Below the pieces are notes generated by a model. The model was not told where the DNA came from and did no database searches. It saw only the letters and a program-made list of their open reading frames with translations. A program made the translations under genes and the position numbers. Below, piece after piece: positions 7,814 to 31,392 of a stretch of 32,035 nt of DNA; position 1 is the stretch's first letter, and every line of letters starts with the position of its first letter. Origin of the DNA: Eubacteriales bacterium (GTDB lineage Bacteria; Bacillota; Clostridia; Oscillospirales; Butyricicoccaceae); NCBI GenBank assembly GCA_030524205.1, contig JAUNGZ010000025.1, forward strand, positions 1 through 32,035, read 5' to 3'.

Positions 7814-8785
7814 ATGGGAGAAGCATTCGGACTTATCATCGTCAGGCCGCTCGGCCTGATTTTACTCGCGATTTTTAAAACGGTTCATTCCTACGGCCTT
7901 GCCGTTATCCTGTTCGCCCTGCTGGTCAAGCTGATCTGCATTCCGCTGGCGATCAAGGGTAAAAAGAGCATGCTCGCGATGACCGCGATGAACGCGGAGC
8001 TGCAGTCGCTGCAAAAGAAATACGCCAACAACCGCGTCAAGCTCAACGACGAGATGCAAAAGCTGTATGATAAGCACGGCGTCAACCCGATGTCGGGCTG
8101 TCTGCCGCAGTTCATCCCGCTGCCGATCATGATGGGCCTGTACTACGCGGTGCAGCAGCCGCTCAAGTTCATGATGGGCTTTGCGGACGACAAGATCGCG
8201 GCGCTTGCCAAGCTGGTCGGCGTCGATATCGCGACCGCCGGGTACTACGGCCAGATCACAATCGCGGAAAAGCTCGGCCAGATGACCGACGCGGCCGGCA
8301 ATTTCCCGGCGGCGGTTACAAGCATCACCAACGGCGCGGGCGAGCTGCTGAACATTGATTTCAGCTTCCTCGGCCTGAACCTTGCGCAGACGCCGTCCAT
8401 TTCGCACCCCGGCATTATCTGGATTATCCCGATCCTGTCCGGCGCGACGGCGTTCCTGTCCAGCTTTGTGATGCAGAAGATGCAGGGCACGCAGAACAGC
8501 CCCGCCGCCGGCCAGATGAAGGCGCTGACGTATATGATGCCGCTGATGTCGGTTTACTTCGGCTTTATCCTGCCGGGCGCCATCGGCATTTACTGGATCT
8601 TCAACAACGTGTTCACCTGCCTGCAGGAGGTTGTGCTGACCAAATGGCTGCGCGGCAAGCGCGAGCAGGCCGAAGCGGAAAAGCAGGCGGCCATCGAAGC
8701 GGAAAAAGCGTCTAAGCGCGCCGCCAATCAGGCCGCGCAGCTCCAGCAGTCCCAGGAAGCGAAGAAAAAGAAGGGGGACAAGTAA
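7814..8785 (+). CDS. yidC: Membrane protein insertase YidC/OxaA
   Basis: Inserts proteins into the cytoplasmic membrane, alone or with SecYEG. The 323-residue product has about five hydrophobic segments, beginning at about residues 5-25, a cytoplasmic charged hairpin (LQKKYANNRVKLNDEMQKLY) and the conserved GCLPQFIPLPIMMGLY loop. The last segment is IGIYWIFNNVFTCLQ, and the tail is Lys-rich, ending KKKKGDK, fitting ribosome contact. I chose the ATG at 7814 because GGAGG ends five bases upstream; an ATG at 7802 lies within that site. No lipobox is seen, unlike Bacillus SpoIIIJ. The jag gene follows two bases later, the standard pair. Confidence 0.95.
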   Translation: MGEAFGLIIVRPLGLILLAIFKTVHSYGLAVILFALLVKLICIPLAIKGKKSMLAMTAMNAELQSLQKKYANNRVKLNDEMQKLYDKHGVNPMSGCLPQFIPLPIMMGLYYAVQQPLKFMMGFADDKIAALAKLVGVDIATAGYYGQITIAEKLGQMTDAAGNFPAAVTSITNGAGELLNIDFSFLGLNLAQTPSISHPGIIWIIPILSGATAFLSSFVMQKMQGTQNSPAAGQMKALTYMMPLMSVYFGFILPGAIGIYWIFNNVFTCLQEVVLTKWLRGKREQAEAEKQAAIEAEKASKRAANQAAQLQQSQEAKKKKGDK

Positions 8786-23600: not shown

Positions 23601-23972
23601 ATGAACAAAGAATCAATGGAAATGCTGCGGGCCGCCGGGGTGGACGTTCAGACCGCCCTCAACCGGTTTTGCGGAAACGATAGCCTGTACGCGAAGTACC
23701 TCAAGAAGTTTTTCGACGACCCCAATTATCGGGAAGCCGGCGCGGCGCTCGCCGCGTCGGACTGGGAGGAAATGCTGCACGCGGCGCATACGCTCAAGGG
23801 CGTGGCGGGAAACCTCGGCCTCGACCGGCTGTTTGAGACGAGCGGGCGCATTGTGGCCGCGCTGCGGGCGGGGGAGCACGATGCGGCGGCGGCCGCCTAC
23901 GCGGTTCTGCGCGGACAGTATGAGGAGCTGTCCCGCGCGGTGGAGCAAATGAGAGAGAGGGGCCTGCTGTGA
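23601..23972 (+). CDS. Histidine phosphotransfer (HPt) protein
   Basis: A 123-residue four-helix HPt protein. The phosphorylatable His is H63 in HAAHTLKGVAGNLG, the standard HPt box. HPt proteins shuttle phosphoryl groups between hybrid kinases and response regulators. No histidine kinase gene is adjacent; the obvious partner is the receiver domain of the next gene, whose GTG start overlaps this stop codon, so the two proteins are probably made together and in similar amount. The ATG at 23601 is preceded by GGGAG. Confidence 0.9.
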   Translation: MNKESMEMLRAAGVDVQTALNRFCGNDSLYAKYLKKFFDDPNYREAGAALAASDWEEMLHAAHTLKGVAGNLGLDRLFETSGRIVAALRAGEHDAAAAAYAVLRGQYEELSRAVEQMRERGLL

Positions 23973-26900
23973 AACGGGATACCATCCTGATCGTGGATGA
24001 TATGGAGGTCAACCGCGCGATCCTGCATGCGCTTTTCGAGGAGGAGTACAACCTGCTGGAAGCGGAAAACGGCGAGCAGGCGGTCATGCTGATCAAGCAG
24101 TACCATCAGTCGCTGGCGGCGGTGCTGCTTGATCTGGTCATGCCGGTCAAGGACGGGTATCAGGTCATGTCCGAGCTGTCCCAAAACGGGCTGCTGGTCG
24201 GCTTTCCGGTCATTGTCATCACCTCGGAGGATTCGATGGAAAACGAGGTCCGCGCGTTCGATCTGGGCGCGGCGGATATCATCATCAAGCCGTTCGAGCC
24301 GCATGTGGTGCGCCGGCGCGTGCGCAACGCGGTCGAGCTGAACCGGCACAAGCTGCATCTGGAGGAAATGGTCGAGGAGCAGGCCTCCAAGCTGCGGGAA
24401 TCGCGCGATGTGATCATGGACGCGCTGTCCTCCGTGATCGAGCACCGCAGCGCCGAAACCGGGCAGCACGTGCTGCGCATCCGCATGTTTACGCGGGTGC
24501 TGCTGGAAAACGTCATGCGCTGCTGCCCGGAGTACGATCTGGACGAGCGCTCGATCGGCGTAATCGCCGAGGCCGCCGCCCTGCACGACATCGGCAAGAT
24601 CGCGATACCGGACACCATCCTGAACAAACCCGGCCGCTTGACGCAGGAAGAATTTGAAATCATGAAGACCCACACGGTCAAGGGCTGCGAGATTCTGACC
24701 GGACTTGACCGCATGGGCGACAGGGAATATCTGCAATACGCCTACAACATCTGCCGCTACCACCACGAGCGGTGGGACGGGCGCGGCTATCCGGACGGCC
24801 TTGTGGGCGACAATATCCCGATCTGCGCGCAGGCGGTCGGCATTGCCGACGCTTACGACGCGCTGACCACCGACCGCGTGTACAAAAAGGCGATCCCGCC
24901 CGAGCGCGCGCTGACGATGATCCTGAACGGGGAGTGCGGCGCGTTTTCCCCCAAGCTGCTGGAGTGCCTGAAGAACGTGAGCATCCCGTTTGAGGAATTG
25001 GTGCGCGATTACGCGGACGGGCGCAGCCCCTCCGGGGAGACGGCCCGTTTGGGCGGGCCGGCCGCCCGCTATCCGGGTCTGAAGGGCGCGGCGGACTTCG
25101 GCCAGATGAAGTATTTCGCGCTGCTGCGCTATTTGGAGGCCACCGTGCTTGAAGCCGACCTCGACAGCGGGATTTACCATCTGGTGTATCAGCAGGACGA
25201 GGATTTCGAGGACCTGCGGCAGGGCGATACGTTTGAGGAGGCTTTTCGCGCGTTTGCGCGGCGCGCCGTGCATCCGGACGACCGGGACGAGGTGCTTTCC
25301 ATCCTCAGCAGCGGGGTCGAGAACTTTTTCGGCAGCGGCCTGATGAAGCGGAGCCGGAAATACCGGGTGCTGCACCGCGCCACCGGCGCGTATGTTTGGT
25401 ACGAGGGGACCGCGCTGCGCGTCGATATCGACAATCCCAAGCAGCACAGGGCGCTGTTCGTCTGGACGCGGTGGGAGGGCGGCGAGGCGGCGCTTCCGCA
25501 AAGCGCGCCCGCGCTGCGCGCGCCCGACACGCACGACCTGCCGGTCAGCGTGCAGCAATGCCTGAACGACCGGTGGTTCACCATGACCTATGTCAACGAA
25601 AGCTTCGTTTCGCTGTTCGGCTACGACAAGCGGGAGCTGGAGCAAAGGTTCCACAACCATTACATCGAAATGGTCTATCAGGAGGACCGGCAGCATATGA
25701 CCCGACGGCTGTACGAGCAGCTTTGCTCCGGCCGCGCGCAGGAGCTGGAGTACCGGGTCGTCACCAAGCAGGGCGGCCTAGTGTGGGTGCTCGACCGGTG
25801 CCAGCCGGTTATGGGCGAGGACGGGTATGAATACCTCAACCGTGTGCTGACCGATATCACCCAGATCAAGCAGGCGCAGGAGGAGCTGCGGCTGAGCATG
25901 GAGCGCTACCGCATCGTGCAGGCGCAGACCAACGATATTATTTTCGAGTGGAACCTCGATCAAGATCAGATCATTTATTCGCAGAACTGGGAAAAGAAAT
26001 TCGGCTACCGTCCCGTTTCAAGCGCCGCGCGGATCGGCACGGCCTCGCGCCTGTATCCCAAGGATCTTCCCGCGCTGCAAAAGCTGATCGGGCAGATAAA
26101 GGCGGGCATGCCCTACGGCGAGGCCGAGCTGCGCGTGCCGGACGCGGCCGGGCAGTACCGCTGGTGCCGCCTGCGCGCGACCACGCAGTTCGACGACAAG
26201 GGCAGGCCGGTCAAGGCGATCGGCGTTGTGGTGGATATTGATTCCGAAAAGCGCCGCACGCAGGAGCTGATCCACAGGGCTGAGCAGGACGCGCTGACCA
26301 AGCTGTACACCAAAAACGCCGCGCGCGACAGCATTGAGCGGACGCTTGAAAACCGCGAGGCGGACGAGCGCTTCGCCATGATGATCATTGATCTGGACAA
26401 TTTCAAGCAGATCAATGATTCCCGTGGACATATGTTCGGCGACGTGGTGCTCGCCGAGGCCGCCGCCTGCCTGAAAAAGCTGTTCCGCGGCAGCGACACG
26501 GTCGCGCGGTTCGGCGGGGATGAATTTCTGGTTTTTCTGCGGCATGCTTCCGACGGACGGTTTCTGCATGAAAAAGCGGCGCATGTCGTCGGCGCGTTCC
26601 GCGAGCTGCTCGTTGAAGAGCTGAAGGACACCCGCCTGACCTGCAGCATCGGCATCGCCTGCTGCCCGGAGGACGGCGCGGATTTCCAAACGCTGTTCCA
26701 GCGGTGCGACCGGGCGCTGTATCAGGCAAAAATGAACGGCAAGGACCGGTTCGCCGTCTATAACGACGCAACCATGTCCAAAATTTTCGGGCTGGACGCG
26801 CCGCAGGTCTATGCGGCGGGCACGCATATCGAATCGGACGACGCGGACGCGCATTTCAGCGTGGACGGCATCGTGCCGCAGGCGTTCCGCCTGCTGTATG

Positions 26901-27724
26901 AATCCGGGGATATGGAAACCGCGGTAAACGCGATTCTGGATATGGCGGGACGCAAATACAATGTCAGCCGCGCGTATATTTTTGAAAATTCGGAGGATGG
27001 GACTTGGTGCCGGAATACCTTCGAGTGGTGCGGCGAGGGGATCGAGCCCCAGATGCCGTCCTTGCAACATGTGGTTTACGCGGAGCTTGGCGGCTGCTAC
27101 AAGGATAACTTTAATGAGAACAATGTATTTTACTGCCGGGACGTCGCTGAACTGTCCGAGGGGCAGCGCAAGCTGATGGAGGAGCAGGGTATCCGTTCGC
27201 TTTTGCAGTGCGCGATACAGGACGCCGGCAGGTTCGTCGGCTTTGTCGGGTTCGACGACTGCGCGCTCCAGCGGACGTGGACGCAGGGCCAGATCGACGC
27301 GCTGACCTTTATTTCCGAGCTGCTGTCCACCTTCCTGCTCAAAAAGCGCGCGCAGGACAAGGCGATTGCCGCCGCGGACGATTTGCAGATGATGCTCGAT
27401 AATCAGAACGCATGGATCTACGTGATCGACCCGGACGATTATACGATGCGCTACCTCAACAAAAAAACCCTGCGCACCGTGCCCGGCGCGGCGCTCGGCC
27501 AATGCTGCCATAAGGCGTTTTTCCACAGGGACACGCCGTGCCGGGTGTGTCCCGCGCGCGATATCCGCCAAACGCGGAGCCAGACGCACGAGGTTTACAA
27601 CCCGGTGCTGGATGTGTGGACGGTGGCGGACGCCAGTTTGGTACGCTGGGACGGGGCGGACGCCTGCCTGCTGGTCTGCCATGATGTGACCGCGTACAAG
27701 CGGCGGGACGGCGGGGCGGTATAA
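23969..27724 (+). CDS. REC/HD-GYP/PAS/GGDEF/GAF cyclic di-GMP signalling protein
   Basis: A 1251-residue cytoplasmic protein that should both make and degrade cyclic di-GMP. Domains in order: receiver (about 1-120; D10/D11, phosphoacceptor D55, K107); coiled coil; HD-GYP phosphodiesterase (about 145-340; HDIGK at 206-210, HHERWDGRGYPDGL at 265-278); about three PAS regions (about 385-500, 525-635, 645-765); GGDEF cyclase (about 773-932; GGDEF at 849-853, with an I-site RGSD at 840-843); GAF-like domain (about 975-1125); and a C-terminal PAS-like domain with a Cys-rich CCHKAFFHRDTPCRVC segment (about 1179-1194). All catalytic signatures look intact. It starts with GTG overlapping the HPt stop. 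No membrane segment is seen. Confidence 0.93.
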   Translation: MKRDTILIVDDMEVNRAILHALFEEEYNLLEAENGEQAVMLIKQYHQSLAAVLLDLVMPVKDGYQVMSELSQNGLLVGFPVIVITSEDSMENEVRAFDLGAADIIIKPFEPHVVRRRVRNAVELNRHKLHLEEMVEEQASKLRESRDVIMDALSSVIEHRSAETGQHVLRIRMFTRVLLENVMRCCPEYDLDERSIGVIAEAAALHDIGKIAIPDTILNKPGRLTQEEFEIMKTHTVKGCEILTGLDRMGDREYLQYAYNICRYHHERWDGRGYPDGLVGDNIPICAQAVGIADAYDALTTDRVYKKAIPPERALTMILNGECGAFSPKLLECLKNVSIPFEELVRDYADGRSPSGETARLGGPAARYPGLKGAADFGQMKYFALLRYLEATVLEADLDSGIYHLVYQQDEDFEDLRQGDTFEEAFRAFARRAVHPDDRDEVLSILSSGVENFFGSGLMKRSRKYRVLHRATGAYVWYEGTALRVDIDNPKQHRALFVWTRWEGGEAALPQSAPALRAPDTHDLPVSVQQCLNDRWFTMTYVNESFVSLFGYDKRELEQRFHNHYIEMVYQEDRQHMTRRLYEQLCSGRAQELEYRVVTKQGGLVWVLDRCQPVMGEDGYEYLNRVLTDITQIKQAQEELRLSMERYRIVQAQTNDIIFEWNLDQDQIIYSQNWEKKFGYRPVSSAARIGTASRLYPKDLPALQKLIGQIKAGMPYGEAELRVPDAAGQYRWCRLRATTQFDDKGRPVKAIGVVVDIDSEKRRTQELIHRAEQDALTKLYTKNAARDSIERTLENREADERFAMMIIDLDNFKQINDSRGHMFGDVVLAEAAACLKKLFRGSDTVARFGGDEFLVFLRHASDGRFLHEKAAHVVGAFRELLVEELKDTRLTCSIGIACCPEDGADFQTLFQRCDRALYQAKMNGKDRFAVYNDATMSKIFGLDAPQVYAAGTHIESDDADAHFSVDGIVPQAFRLLYESGDMETAVNAILDMAGRKYNVSRAYIFENSEDGTWCRNTFEWCGEGIEPQMPSLQHVVYAELGGCYKDNFNENNVFYCRDVAELSEGQRKLMEEQGIRSLLQCAIQDAGRFVGFVGFDDCALQRTWTQGQIDALTFISELLSTFLLKKRAQDKAIAAADDLQMMLDNQNAWIYVIDPDDYTMRYLNKKTLRTVPGAALGQCCHKAFFHRDTPCRVCPARDIRQTRSQTHEVYNPVLDVWTVADASLVRWDGADACLLVCHDVTAYKRRDGGAV

Positions 27725-27741
27725 TAAAGCATCTCGGCAGC

Positions 27742-27781
27742 AAAAGCGGCGGCCGTCCGTTTGGACGACCGCCGCTTTTTT
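27742..27781. terminator. Bidirectional terminator between the c-di-GMP gene and the xre gene
   Basis: A 14-position stem with one mismatch, AGCGGCGGCCGTCC paired with GGACGACCGCCGCT, loop GTTT, flanked by A and T runs. It lies between the convergent genes and can serve both. Confidence 0.9.
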
Positions 27782-27803
27782 ATATTTGCCGGCCGCGCCG
27801 CGT

Positions 27804-28013
27804 TCATCTGCGCGGCGTCAGTCCGAGGATATAGTCGGCCGACACCCGGTACAAACGGCACAGCACGAGAAGATGCCGGATGGGCAGCTCGTTCGCGCCG
27901 CGCTCGTAGCGGGCGTACATGGTCTGGGAAGTGCCGAGCAGGCGCGCCACCTGCTCCTGTGTTAAATCCGCGTCCTCCCGCAGATCCCGGATGATCCGAA
28001 CGTATGGCTGCAC
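27804..28013 (-). CDS. XRE-family small repressor
   Basis: A 69-residue protein that is little more than a Cro/CI-type helix-turn-helix (IRDLREDADLTQEQVARLL, then GTSQTMYARYERGANELP). It has no extra sensor domain, so it may act as a plain repressor, possibly through a partner. The start is GTG at 28013, preceded by GGAAGGGGGGG, which is a long G run but plausible as a ribosome binding site. It diverges from the SLH-protein gene, and two matching dyads in the shared region (28056-28098) are its likely operators. Confidence 0.85.
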   Translation of the reverse strand: MQPYVRIIRDLREDADLTQEQVARLLGTSQTMYARYERGANELPIRHLLVLCRLYRVSADYILGLTPRR

Positions 28014-28055
28014 TTGCGCACCCCCCCTTCCTCTTGCTCTATAAATATCGTAGCA

Positions 28056-28102
28056 TAGTAAAGAAATATACTATTGACATTAGTAAATAAATTTACTATA
28101 AT
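28056..28102 (+). promoter_or_regulatory. Consensus promoter with two matching 18-bp operators
   Basis: TTGACA (28074-28079), 17 bases, TATAAT (28097-28102): a perfect sigma-A consensus. Dyad 1, TAGTAAAGAAATATACTA (28056-28073), ends just before the minus-35. Dyad 2, TAGTAAATAAATTTACTA (28081-28098), fills the spacer. Both share TAGTAAA...TACTA ends and their centres are 25 bases apart. A repressor bound here would block polymerase. The adjacent XRE protein is the obvious candidate. Confidence 0.85.
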
Positions 28103-28189
28103 AATCACATACAAATTACGGCAGTATGCTTGAAAAAGGCTATTACTTGTGATATTCTCTTTATGCTAATAGATATATGCATAAATAAT

Positions 28190-28275
28190 TTGGCAAACCC
28201 ATCGAAAGATGGCGACGCAAAGCTAAAGGGACTTCTTCGCGGGCGCGAAATGTCAGCCAGCTGCACGGTTGCTCC
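28190..28275 (+). ncRNA. Cyclic di-GMP-I riboswitch (GEMM)
   Basis: The leader between the promoter and the SLH-protein gene contains the GEMM-I core: GGCAAACC (28192-28199), the P1b-type hairpin CCATC-GAAA-GATGG (28199-28212), the invariant GACGCAAAGC (28214-28223) and, on the far side, ATGTCAGCCAGCTG (28250-28263) followed by a closing GGTTGC. The tetraloop GAAA and its receptor-type AAAGGG region are in the usual places. Position, sequence and the terminator that follows make this a strong call. Whether the ligand switches the gene on or off cannot be told by eye. Confidence 0.92.
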
Positions 28276-28296
28276 CGATATGGGGGTTATACCTTG

Positions 28297-28324
28297 AAAC
28301 TGGACTGAACAGTCCAGTTTTTTT
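28297..28324 (+). terminator. Intrinsic terminator in the riboswitch expression platform
   Basis: A 10- to 11-bp perfect stem AAACTGGACTG/CAGTCCAGTTT with a small loop, then a T run. It lies about 22 bases after the aptamer and before the SLH-protein start, so ligand binding probably controls whether RNA polymerase passes it. Confidence 0.92.
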
Positions 28325-28369
28325 ATTGCCCTCCGAGGGTGGGGGCTATTCGTTAAAGGAGGAATACAT

Positions 28370-31135
28370 ATGAAAAAGCACAGAGGTTTGGCCGCGCTGC
28401 TCGCAGCGGCGGTCGCCGCGTCAATGCTGACAGTACCGGCGCTGGCCGCGGATTTTGCCGACATCGAGGGGCATTGGGGCGCTTCGTCGATCGAGCGCTG
28501 GGCGGATTACGGCGTTGTGCAGGGTTCGGACGGCAAATTTAACCCGGACGCCGAGATGACCCGCGCCGAGCTTGCGGCCGTCATGGCGCGCCTGCTCGGT
28601 CTGCGGGATAAGGCGGAGAATACCTTTGCCGATGTGGACGAGGGCGCTTGGTACGCCGACGCGATCCTGAAATGCGCGGCCGCCGGCATCCTGAAGGGCG
28701 ACGGCACAGGCGCCAACCCGAACGGCACGGTAACGCGGCAGGAAGCGGCGGTCATGCTGGGCCGCGCGCTCGGCATCCAGCCTGCGCAGGGCGCGGTCTC
28801 CTTTGCCGACGGCAGCGAGGTTGCCGGCTGGGCGGCGGGCTACGTTAAAGCCATGGCCGAAAAGGGCATCATCAATGGCGTGGGCGGCAATGCTTTCGCC
28901 CCGCTGAGCGATATCAACCGCGCCTCGGTCACCACGATTTTGGATAAGTCGATCTCGACCTACGCCAATGAGAAGGGCGCTTCGGTCGAAGCCGCGGGCG
29001 ACGGCCTGACCGTTGTTGCCGCGCCCGATGTAACGGTCACCGGCGCGGCGGCCGATATCGTGGTAGCGCCCGGCGCGGCCGACGGCACGACGACGCTTGA
29101 AAACACCGCCGTCACTGGCACGGTGACGGTTTCCGCGCCGCAGGCCGAGGTCGTCCTCGCCGGTACGACCAAGGCGGCGGATATCGTCGTCAGCCAGACG
29201 GCGGAGGCCGCTAAGGTAACGGTCGCCTCGACCGCCGAGGCTCAGACGATCACCGCCGAAGCTCCCAAGGCCGAGGTTGCGGTGGCTGGCAAGGTCGATA
29301 AGGTCGAAACCGCAGAAACGGCCGATTCCGCCAAGGTAACGGTCGAAAAATCGGCCACGGTCAGCGAGGTTGCGGTGGGCGCAGCCAAGACCGAGGTCGC
29401 CGTTTCCGGCAAGGTGGACAGCGTGCAGGTGAACGAGGCAGCGGCGGATACCAAGGTGCAGGCCAACAGCGGCGCGACCATCAGCAAGGTGGACAACGCG
29501 GCGGCCGGCACGACGGTTTCCGGCTCGGGCAAGGTGGAAAACGTGACCACCTCGGGCGATAACACCAAGGTCGATACCTCGGGCACCAAGGTGGAGGCCG
29601 CCGAGGGCACGACCGGCACGACGGCGGGCGGCACCAAGGTGGACGGCGGCGAGAGCACGACCACAACCAAGCCCAGCACCGGCGGCGGTGGCGGCGGCGG
29701 TTCTTCCGGGCCAAGCTATACCACGGTAAACGACGCGGCGGCGCTGGCAACCGCGTTCCAGAACGGCGGTTATGTGCGGTTGGGCACGGATATTGCACCG
29801 GCAGATTATCTTACAATTCCAGCAGGGAAAAATGTGACGCTGGATTTAAACGGAAAGATACTGACGATGGCGGCGACAGATAACCAACCCGATTCCTATC
29901 GAAATATTTGTGTTTACGGAACGTTGACAATTGAAGACCGGGCAAACGGCGGAAAGATCGTCAGATCGGCACAAACTTCGGTGGGTGCACTCTCTGTAGT
30001 AGAGATTGATAACGGCGGTAAAATCGTGATGAACAGCGGCATGATCGAGGCGGGAAATCCCTCGAATGCGGACAATACGAACGGTGCAACTGCCGTAGGC
30101 GTGTTCAATGACAGCACCTTTGAGATGAACGGCGGCAGTATTACGGCAAGCTGGTATGCCGTATGTTCAAACGGAACAACCGATTCTAACGCTGAAACCT
30201 ACGGAAACAACGCAAGAATTGTAATTAACGGCGGTCAACTGATCTCTTCGACGGATTATGCTGTTTACGCTCCGTCCGATGGCGGTGTAACCACCATAAG
30301 CGACGGCCATTTGCAAGGCTCGTGGGGCGCGGTTCAATTAACGCGAGGCGAGCTGAATGTAAAGGGCGGCACGTTGACCTGCAACGGCGCTGCCAATGCA
30401 GTAAAGCCGGATGGACAGCATGATGGTTCCACGCCTTCCAGCGCTGCCGCCATATCGCTGAATGCGGTTCACGGCCCTATTACAGCCAGCCTTTCCGGCG
30501 GCACATTTTCGACGACAAACGGAGAAATGGCAGTTAAAAAGAGTGGGAGCCACAACGTTACCACAAACATTACCGGCGGCACGTACTCGAGCGATGTAAC
30601 CGAACTTTGCGCGACTGGTTATGCCTGCGAAGAAGTGAACGGAAAGTACGTTGTAAAGCAATTCGATGATATCCTTACGGAGAAACTGGATGCGTTCGCA
30701 TCTGACCTCTCGGGAAATAGCCTGCCCGTAACAATGGAAAAAGCCGCAGATAAAGAGTATAATGTTACGTTTACATCCGCTACTATCAGCGGCACCAACG
30801 CGGTCGCCATGCTCAGCACGATTCCCGGGCTGACGAAGGTTTCGGTTGCCAAGGATGGCGCGACAACCGTATCGCTTGAGGTTAAGAACGCGGAAAGCGG
30901 CGGCGCTCAGTTCAAAACAGATGTTACGAATCTGCTTCCCACAGCTTCCGGCAGCACGGTCGACCTGACCGTCACCTTCTCGCAGGGCGAAAGCCATACA
31001 GCGGCTATCACCCTGCACGTGACCAACAATGTTACCAGCGACAGCACCACCACCCAGCAGTCCGACGAGGGCGGCGGAACTGTCGGAGACAGCACCATCC
31101 AGCAGCCCGGCGACGAGGGCACAATCACCGAATAA
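28370..31135 (+). CDS. Secreted SLH-domain surface protein with beta-helix region
   Basis: A 921-residue predicted surface protein. Signal peptide at 1-27 (cleavage after ALA). Three S-layer-homology domains follow: about 28-88 (MTRAELAAVMARLLGL), 89-145 (VTRQEAAVMLGRALGI), 146-197 (INRASVTTI). They should bind cell-wall polymer. Residues 205-430 are an Ala/Val/Thr-rich repeat region of short beta strands. A TGGGGGGGSSGPSY linker (about 437-450) leads to a right-handed beta-helix-like region (about 450-765; repeated GG-x-I/G-T pattern, similar in character to pectate-lyase-fold repeats), then a C-terminal domain ending in an acidic Ser/Thr/Gly tail. The AAAGGAGGAATACAT site before the ATG is strong. 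Expression is governed by the promoter, operators and riboswitch upstream. Ligand and role (adhesin, enzyme) are unknown. Confidence 0.9.
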   Translation: MKKHRGLAALLAAAVAASMLTVPALAADFADIEGHWGASSIERWADYGVVQGSDGKFNPDAEMTRAELAAVMARLLGLRDKAENTFADVDEGAWYADAILKCAAAGILKGDGTGANPNGTVTRQEAAVMLGRALGIQPAQGAVSFADGSEVAGWAAGYVKAMAEKGIINGVGGNAFAPLSDINRASVTTILDKSISTYANEKGASVEAAGDGLTVVAAPDVTVTGAAADIVVAPGAADGTTTLENTAVTGTVTVSAPQAEVVLAGTTKAADIVVSQTAEAAKVTVASTAEAQTITAEAPKAEVAVAGKVDKVETAETADSAKVTVEKSATVSEVAVGAAKTEVAVSGKVDSVQVNEAAADTKVQANSGATISKVDNAAAGTTVSGSGKVENVTTSGDNTKVDTSGTKVEAAEGTTGTTAGGTKVDGGESTTTTKPSTGGGGGGGSSGPSYTTVNDAAALATAFQNGGYVRLGTDIAPADYLTIPAGKNVTLDLNGKILTMAATDNQPDSYRNICVYGTLTIEDRANGGKIVRSAQTSVGALSVVEIDNGGKIVMNSGMIEAGNPSNADNTNGATAVGVFNDSTFEMNGGSITASWYAVCSNGTTDSNAETYGNNARIVINGGQLISSTDYAVYAPSDGGVTTISDGHLQGSWGAVQLTRGELNVKGGTLTCNGAANAVKPDGQHDGSTPSSAAAISLNAVHGPITASLSGGTFSTTNGEMAVKKSGSHNVTTNITGGTYSSDVTELCATGYACEEVNGKYVVKQFDDILTEKLDAFASDLSGNSLPVTMEKAADKEYNVTFTSATISGTNAVAMLSTIPGLTKVSVAKDGATTVSLEVKNAESGGAQFKTDVTNLLPTASGSTVDLTVTFSQGESHTAAITLHVTNNVTSDSTTTQQSDEGGGTVGDSTIQQPGDEGTITE

Positions 31136-31188: not shown

Positions 31189-31217
31189 TTGACTTTTCCC
31201 GCCGCATATGCTATGAT
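31189..31217 (+). promoter_or_regulatory. mntP promoter
   Basis: TTGACT (31189-31194), 17 bases, TATGAT (31212-31217). The riboswitch begins about nine bases downstream, which fits a transcription start near its 5' end. Confidence 0.82.
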
Positions 31218-31225
31218 AGAGCGCA

Positions 31226-31353
31226 ATAAGGGAGTAGTCGGCGCGGTCTGTTCCGCCGCGCGGCAGAGCCAACATACTGAGGGGGACGCTCCTCTGGTTT
31301 TGCATGAAATGACGAGACTTATCTGTTTATGCGGCAGATGGGTCTCCTTTTTT
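31226..31353 (+). ncRNA. Mn2+-sensing yybP-ykoY riboswitch with terminator
   Basis: The aptamer shows the family marks AAGGGAGTAG (31229-31237 region), CCAACATACTGA, and CGAGACTTAT (31313-31322). ATAAG (31226-31230) pairs with CTTAT (31318-31322) to close P1. GAGACTTATCTG (31314-31325) can instead pair with CAGATGGGTCTC (31335-31346), followed by six T residues, as an intrinsic terminator. These pairings exclude each other, so Mn2+ stabilising P1 should prevent termination and turn mntP on. The Mn2+ specificity is from the known family. Confidence 0.93.
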
Positions 31354-31392
31354 ATGCCTAAGCTGCCGCGCCTACGACGAGGAGGACAAGAA

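Follow-up and report, generated by a model that had tools for sequence, protein, structure and literature searches.

The locus analysed here lies on a contig of 32,035 nucleotides (JAUNGZ010000025.1, GenBank assembly GCA_030524205.1), hereafter the window, from a member of the Eubacteriales whose genome assembly is 2.2 Mb long and 82% complete. It contains an HPt gene, the gene of an enzyme of cyclic di-GMP (c-di-GMP) metabolism, a small XRE regulator gene and the gene of an SLH-domain surface protein, the last preceded by a c-di-GMP-I riboswitch. An earlier account made from the DNA letters alone (the sequence-only reading) had proposed that these parts form a self-contained c-di-GMP circuit. 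The features are as follows.

23601..23972, plus strand: HPt protein of 123 aa, probable phosphorelay carrier (Pfam Hpt, 8.1e-13)
23969..27724, plus strand: REC-HD-GYP-PAS-PAS-GGDEF-GAF enzyme of 1251 aa (Pfam domains and intact motifs)
27746..27781, plus strand: hairpin and T-run ending the enzyme transcription unit (sequence read directly)
27804..28013, minus strand: XRE (HTH_3) regulator of 69 aa, divergent from the SLH unit (Pfam HTH_3, 8.8e-14)
28056..28073, no strand assigned: putative XRE operator 1, an 18-bp palindrome abutting the -35 box
28081..28098, no strand assigned: putative XRE operator 2, an 18-bp palindrome within the promoter spacer, 25 bp from operator 1
28074..28102, plus strand: promoter of the riboswitch-SLH unit, TTGACA-17 bp-TATAAT (sequence read directly)
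28182..28268, plus strand: c-di-GMP-I riboswitch aptamer (Rfam RF01051)
28296..28324, plus strand: intrinsic terminator, likely the expression platform (hairpin of -13.7 kcal/mol and U-run)
28370..31135, plus strand: secreted SLH-domain surface protein of 921 aa (Pfam, three SLH stretches, 1.2e-30)

The HPt protein scores 48.9 bits against the Pfam Hpt cut-off of 24.6 and has the HxxKG motif at H63; in an alignment of 7 HPts the residues G13, R22, H63, K66, G67, V68, N71, L72 and R89 are invariant. Its stop codon overlaps the GTG start of the enzyme gene by 4 nt (GTGA), the overlapping-codon coupling that the sequence-only reading had described. The enzyme matches Response_reg, HD_5/HD, PAS_3 (two stretches), GGDEF and GAF, each above its Pfam cut-off (HD_5 3e-29, GGDEF 6.1e-39). 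The motifs DLVMP (D55), HDIGK, HHE, GYP, GGDEF and, five residues before the last, RGSD are intact, again as had been claimed, and we take them to be catalytic or phospho-acceptor motifs; with these domains and motifs the enzyme can be predicted both to synthesise and to break down c-di-GMP. It shares with REC-HD-GYP and PleD-type REC-GGDEF response regulators a REC input and HD-GYP and GGDEF domains, but differs from them in that a single chain, preceded by a dedicated HPt, unites both catalytic domains with PAS and GAF domains. Its best NCBIfam matches, to the PleD and NosR families, are both far under their cut-offs. No hybrid or histidine kinase was seen beside the HPt-enzyme pair of the window; a hybrid kinase adjoins the enzyme in L262 and in L080 and L081, where a hybrid HisKA-HATPase-REC kinase lies directly downstream. 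The hairpin and T-run at 27746-27781, between the enzyme and XRE genes, had not been reported in the earlier account. Since the enzyme unit terminates there, and the riboswitch lies beyond the divergent XRE gene, the riboswitch presumably does not control the enzyme.

The proposed riboswitch was checked with a covariance model and confirmed: RF01051 matches over its full length (positions 1-87 of 87) with 64.6 bits against a gathering threshold of 35 (E 1.2e-10), and remains top of its clan at this site in a permissive scan. The terminator stands 28 nt past the aptamer. With the RF01051 (GEMM-I) class the window shares an aptamer of full length, an intrinsic terminator after it and a gene for a surface protein behind both; it differs in that the enzyme gene lies upstream, outside the riboswitch transcript, and in that the output is an SLH protein. 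The terminator finder was positive at 8/10 tested riboswitch sites; at one site, G002:C3, it gave no terminator, though a GACAGA-like hairpin and T-run are readable there by eye.

The sequence-only reading was also right that the SLH gene has a promoter bearing repressor dyads, the two palindromes being twin 18-bp elements and the neighbouring regulator an XRE protein by Pfam. A scan of 25 genomes from the genus turned up only two exact matches to the operator consensus TAGTAAANAAATNTACTA, and both lie in the window; only exact sites are counted because, with two mismatches allowed, a reversed control pattern matches about equally often in the same genomes. That these are real XRE operators is suggested by the same twin palindromes lying directly 5' of the gene in 5/5 closest XRE homologues (65-73% identical, L216-L220); among the next six homologues (L221-L226) the pair was found in 0/6. 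The core operator pattern occurs in 9/391 genomes of the class, own genome included. Five of the 8 others have the twin element, which in four of the five adjoins an XRE homologue (E 5.8e-29 or better) and in the fifth ends at a contig edge. Because the twin element recurs at XRE homologues amid differing neighbours, the XRE-operator pair appears to be an old autoregulatory unit with changing neighbours, the divergent promoter of which would in the window drive the riboswitch-SLH unit.

It was observed in addition that in several genera (L216-L220, L230-L233), as at 28056-28098 of the window, a small XRE regulator comes with a twin-palindrome operator in which a divergent promoter is embedded. 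The neighbours of this element vary and include secreted proteins, a membrane protein and, judged by eye, an ABC-type ATPase.

The linkage of c-di-GMP enzyme genes to riboswitches was surveyed across the order of the window in 87 genomes, which contributed 174 riboswitch sites grouped into 154 units. These sites comprise 42 from an earlier search and 132 new ones among 150 matches listed; the order-wide search was positive in 104 genomes, and the weakest matches and some positive genomes are not among the matches listed. Hidden Markov models for GGDEF, EAL, HD-GYP, HPt and SLH were made from the own genome, the window, L080-L082 or L159, and all of the 23 enzyme matches checked with Pfam (23/23) were confirmed. 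Linkage of enzyme and riboswitch is commoner in the order than the background. Genes for GGDEF, EAL or HD-GYP proteins with their nearest edge <1 kb from a riboswitch numbered 33 in 298 kb (17 upstream, 16 downstream), against 20 in 1,333 kb at 3-9 kb from riboswitches. An upstream enzyme gene ending within 1 kb was found in 13/154 units, a count that omits five units in which a riboswitch lies on either side of the enzyme, against 2.25 expected (Poisson P 7.6e-7, or 4.2e-6 for the 12 cases without the window); these P values are optimistic because many upstream units have an architecture in common with others, and they treat units as independent though several share an inherited operon. The 13 upstream cases come from 13 genomes in 10 families, 11 of them on the same strand and all 13 confirmed by Pfam. 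A first estimate, drawn from the own genus plus 16 riboswitch-bearing genomes, had suggested chance-like linkage and was overturned by this larger survey. According to the available text of PMC7266159, the RF01051 class is associated with genes that produce or degrade c-di-GMP or belong to its signalling networks; the downstream cases fit this association, which does not explain the upstream ones.

HPt genes were then considered in 80 of the 87 surveyed genomes, with rounded genome lengths, and gave 133 matches in 52/80 genomes. With standalone defined as an open frame of <=245 aa, a cut chosen after the table had been seen and just admitting G544 (242), 5 of the 43 standalone HPts lie <=5 kb from a riboswitch, where 0.30 are expected (P 1.5e-5). 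Leaving out the own genome gives 4 against 0.27 (P 1.8e-4), and the same test on all 133 matches has an expectation of 0.82 and P 1.5e-3. The five are those of the window, G544, G575, G630 and G039; in the latter four genomes the HPt near the riboswitch, 31-38% identical to that of the window, is the sole HPt match. Three of them have a REC-HD-GYP gene with the HPt beside the riboswitch: G544 reads hybrid kinase, REC-HD-GYP, HPt, riboswitch, CotH; G575 reads REC-HD-GYP, HPt, riboswitch, a 238-aa protein (no Pfam match) and a further HD-GYP protein; and G630, which repeats the logic of the window, reads REC-HD-GYP-GGDEF (two overlapping frames), HPt, riboswitch and a protein of 3190 aa whose N terminus resembles type IV pilins. 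In G039 the HPt is found with a REC-GGDEF-EAL gene, facing away from the riboswitch. The HPt and REC-HD-GYP genes are also partners independently of riboswitches, at least 6/10 HPt matches in five own-genus genomes adjoining a relative of the REC-HD-GYP region of the window.

Other layouts recur as well. A GGDEF gene, riboswitch and VTC-like gene are shared by G612, G622, G661, G694 and G765, the order in G661 being GGDEF, riboswitch, VTC, DUF4956, CotH; the last three were tested with Pfam in G661 only, the other four genomes being assigned to the layout by similarity of protein starts. GGDEF, riboswitch and EAL follow one another in G513 and G528. The placing of a c-di-GMP enzyme gene, often along with its HPt, next to a c-di-GMP-I riboswitch and a gene of surface output recurs in the order and is probably selected; it draws on differing gene families from place to place.

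At L302, L320, L338, L286 and L291 the GGDEF gene ends at or just before a c-di-GMP-I riboswitch leading a VTC-type gene, and such loci resemble the accessory genes of Gram-positive Pel clusters. Another group (L258, L270, L305, L328, L343, L250, L311) has a riboswitch, a gene and a protein of ~300 aa with HD-GYP, often with a second c-di-GMP-I riboswitch after it; the ~300-aa proteins gave a weak Cupin_2 match in the three tested.

For the window itself, the reading we hold at about an even chance is that of two adjacent, separately transcribed units, in which c-di-GMP set by a phosphorelay, acting through the riboswitch, and the XRE protein control the SLH gene, as an instance of the arrangement that recurs in the order. 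An unlinked hybrid kinase would pass phosphate via H63 of the HPt to D55 of the REC domain, and REC phosphorylation, together with inputs at the PAS and GAF domains, would set the balance, and so the net direction, of c-di-GMP synthesis and breakdown. The XRE protein would repress the sigma-70-type promoter through the conserved twin operators, gating initiation. We infer that c-di-GMP, fed at least in part by the enzyme, is bound by the leader aptamer, with either termination at 28324 or read-through into the SLH gene as the outcome.

Several observations weigh against this reading. Nothing ties the riboswitch to the enzyme of the window rather than to the other twelve GGDEF loci of the genome, because the enzyme and SLH genes are separate transcription units. 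Within the genome collection the nearest relatives of the enzyme are three full-length proteins of 54-60% identity, those of Cuneatibacter sp. NSJ-177 (L080), Candidatus Stoquefichus massiliensis (L081) and Clostridium sp. MCC353 (L082); the overlapping HPt is kept in L081 and L082, none was found in L080, and RF01051 is absent from the 24-25 kb stretches around all three enzymes. Conversely, the riboswitch-SLH units of G010 and G024, preceded by a gene read by eye as pyruvate:ferredoxin oxidoreductase, have no enzyme, HPt or XRE match nearby. The sequence-only reading had named neighbours not conserved together in relatives as grounds for rejecting its circuit, and at the level of the locus this is the outcome: since L080-L082 lack the riboswitch, and G010 and G024 the enzyme, HPt and XRE gene, the exact neighbourhood is not conserved in the relatives examined. 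Among own-genus riboswitch units an enzyme lies <=1 kb away in 1/14, the window itself, and <=5 kb away in 2/14. As to the sign of the switch, pairing between aptamer and terminator is no better than in shuffled sequence (shuffles paired as well in 258/500), which makes the folding evidence for OFF weak. The inherited operons noted above bear on the survey.

Some of these observations favour the possibility, which we regard as serious if short of even, that the two units are chance neighbours, a generic HPt/HD-GYP-GGDEF phosphorelay that happens to adjoin one of the surface-protein genes of a c-di-GMP riboswitch regulon spread over the genome, with the riboswitch reading the global c-di-GMP pool set by all enzymes. 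The unconserved locus, the single enzyme-linked unit of the genus, and the XRE gene and terminator between enzyme and riboswitch are all as expected from it. So are the 13 GGDEF domains and three c-di-GMP-I riboswitches of the own genome, which also has 90 SLH-domain matches; two of these riboswitches precede SLH genes and the third a 2722-aa protein with a secreted-looking start. Against chance neighbours speak the excess, across the order, of enzyme genes and of HPts near riboswitches and the own-genus genome G002, where EAL-REC-GGDEF and hybrid-kinase genes stand before a riboswitch-SLH unit and a REC-GGDEF-EAL gene after it, without an HPt. The circuit drawn from adjacency stands in part: the parts are present, HPt and REC-HD-GYP genes travel together and the linkage is enriched in the order, while the locus is unconserved and its genes fall into separate transcription units. 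The term self-contained is not upheld given the GGDEF domains and riboswitches elsewhere and no linked histidine kinase, and the locus of the window is one node of the wider c-di-GMP network of its genome.

Two observations concern the loci just named. In G002:C3 (L159, about 7900-8760) the assembly seems to break the SLH gene that follows the riboswitch into more than one reading frame. In the own genome a second HPt (G000:C41:20531-22784) adjoins a REC-HD-GYP relative and a GGDEF domain, and no RF01051 match was found on that contig.

A surface protein promoted by c-di-GMP suits sessile life, and on this general ground an ON switch, by which c-di-GMP would promote SLH display as expected for adhesion, might be supposed. 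We consider it rather unlikely. The folds do show no antiterminator above chance: the fold of the window had suggested one, from which the sign could have been read, and the shuffle control undid it, while at the other tested riboswitch sites no antiterminator pairing was clearly above its own shuffles. On the other side, the class I riboswitches of C. difficile are, in the accessible part of PMC6200980, uniformly OFF switches, and the free fold of the window just short of terminator completion uses aptamer bases and is 5.5 kcal/mol better than the aptamer-forced fold. An OFF switch is the favoured prediction, mainly because of the C. difficile riboswitches and also because the free fold takes up aptamer bases.

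It is improbable that the SLH gene answers chiefly to the XRE protein, with c-di-GMP only a modifier and the unit a regulator and divergent surface gene that later gained a riboswitch. In favour of this, the twin operators lie over the promoter and are found again 5' of the XRE gene in the 5 closest homologues, of which L217, L218 and L219 also have a divergent gene whose product looks secreted from its start, and the riboswitch-SLH units of G010 and G024 are without XRE; against it, the riboswitch is complete, high-scoring and closely followed by its terminator, and both controls can act in series. The reading of two separately transcribed units could be taken further, to portable local-signalling cassettes, set up repeatedly by bacteria of the order, in which an HPt-fed enzyme made from the nearby gene raises or lowers c-di-GMP around the nascent leader RNA; we think this very improbable, and if true it would give each surface gene a private input inside a shared pool.

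The SLH protein has a signal-peptide-like start, read by eye. A single-sequence structure model has a mean pLDDT of 47.6, and the only well-predicted part is residues about 241-390 (pLDDT 80-94), all of it beta strands; this run sits after the SLH repeats and may be beta-solenoid-like. In G010 and G024, both of the own genus, the riboswitch stands before an SLH gene of 2153 or 2187 aa, and behind the SLH repeats the proteins match the one in the window at 52% and 50% identity, respectively, over ~112 residues. An SLH gene follows the riboswitch within 700 bp in 7/14 own-genus units against 2/140 elsewhere, a comparison that leans to the own genus, the SLH model having been built from the own genome.

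Two further elements were noted. A long structured-looking leader precedes an mntP-type gene (Pfam Mntp) at 31190-31390 of the window; by eye a yybP-ykoY-like manganese riboswitch was suspected, and no Rfam match was found at E up to 1. In Candidatus Stoquefichus (L081, 6676-6974) group II intron RNA matches lie ~3.4 kb upstream of the HPt-enzyme pair.

The C. difficile regulon, as far as the available text of PMC6200980 and PMC11477304 describes it, has c-di-GMP-I riboswitches ahead of genes for the envelope, adhesins and flagella, and the window shares with it the control of envelope or surface genes by this class; an HPt-enzyme pair by the riboswitch and an SLH target are not described in that text. 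Gram-positive Pel clusters have CotH, polyphosphate polymerase and DUF4956 accessory genes according to the portions of PMC7112168 available. They likewise tie c-di-GMP enzyme genes to a surface output, and the G661 layout is similar; a riboswitch is mentioned 0 times in PMC7112168, and the window has no polysaccharide genes next to its riboswitch. The open-access literature, in such text as was available and with subscription papers mostly outside the search, was found to describe neither an HPt-enzyme pair beside a c-di-GMP riboswitch nor an SLH gene under one. The components are known, and as far as searched the recurrent arrangement of HPt, enzyme, riboswitch and surface gene is undescribed in that literature.

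How outputs are kept specific in cells with many c-di-GMP enzymes is debated, between local protein complexes and one global pool, in the part of PMC8967002 available. A gene order in which source, sensor RNA and surface output repeatedly adjoin, several times along with a dedicated phosphorelay carrier, provides small natural test objects for this specificity. They lie in gut Clostridia, in which, to our knowledge, little is known of c-di-GMP.

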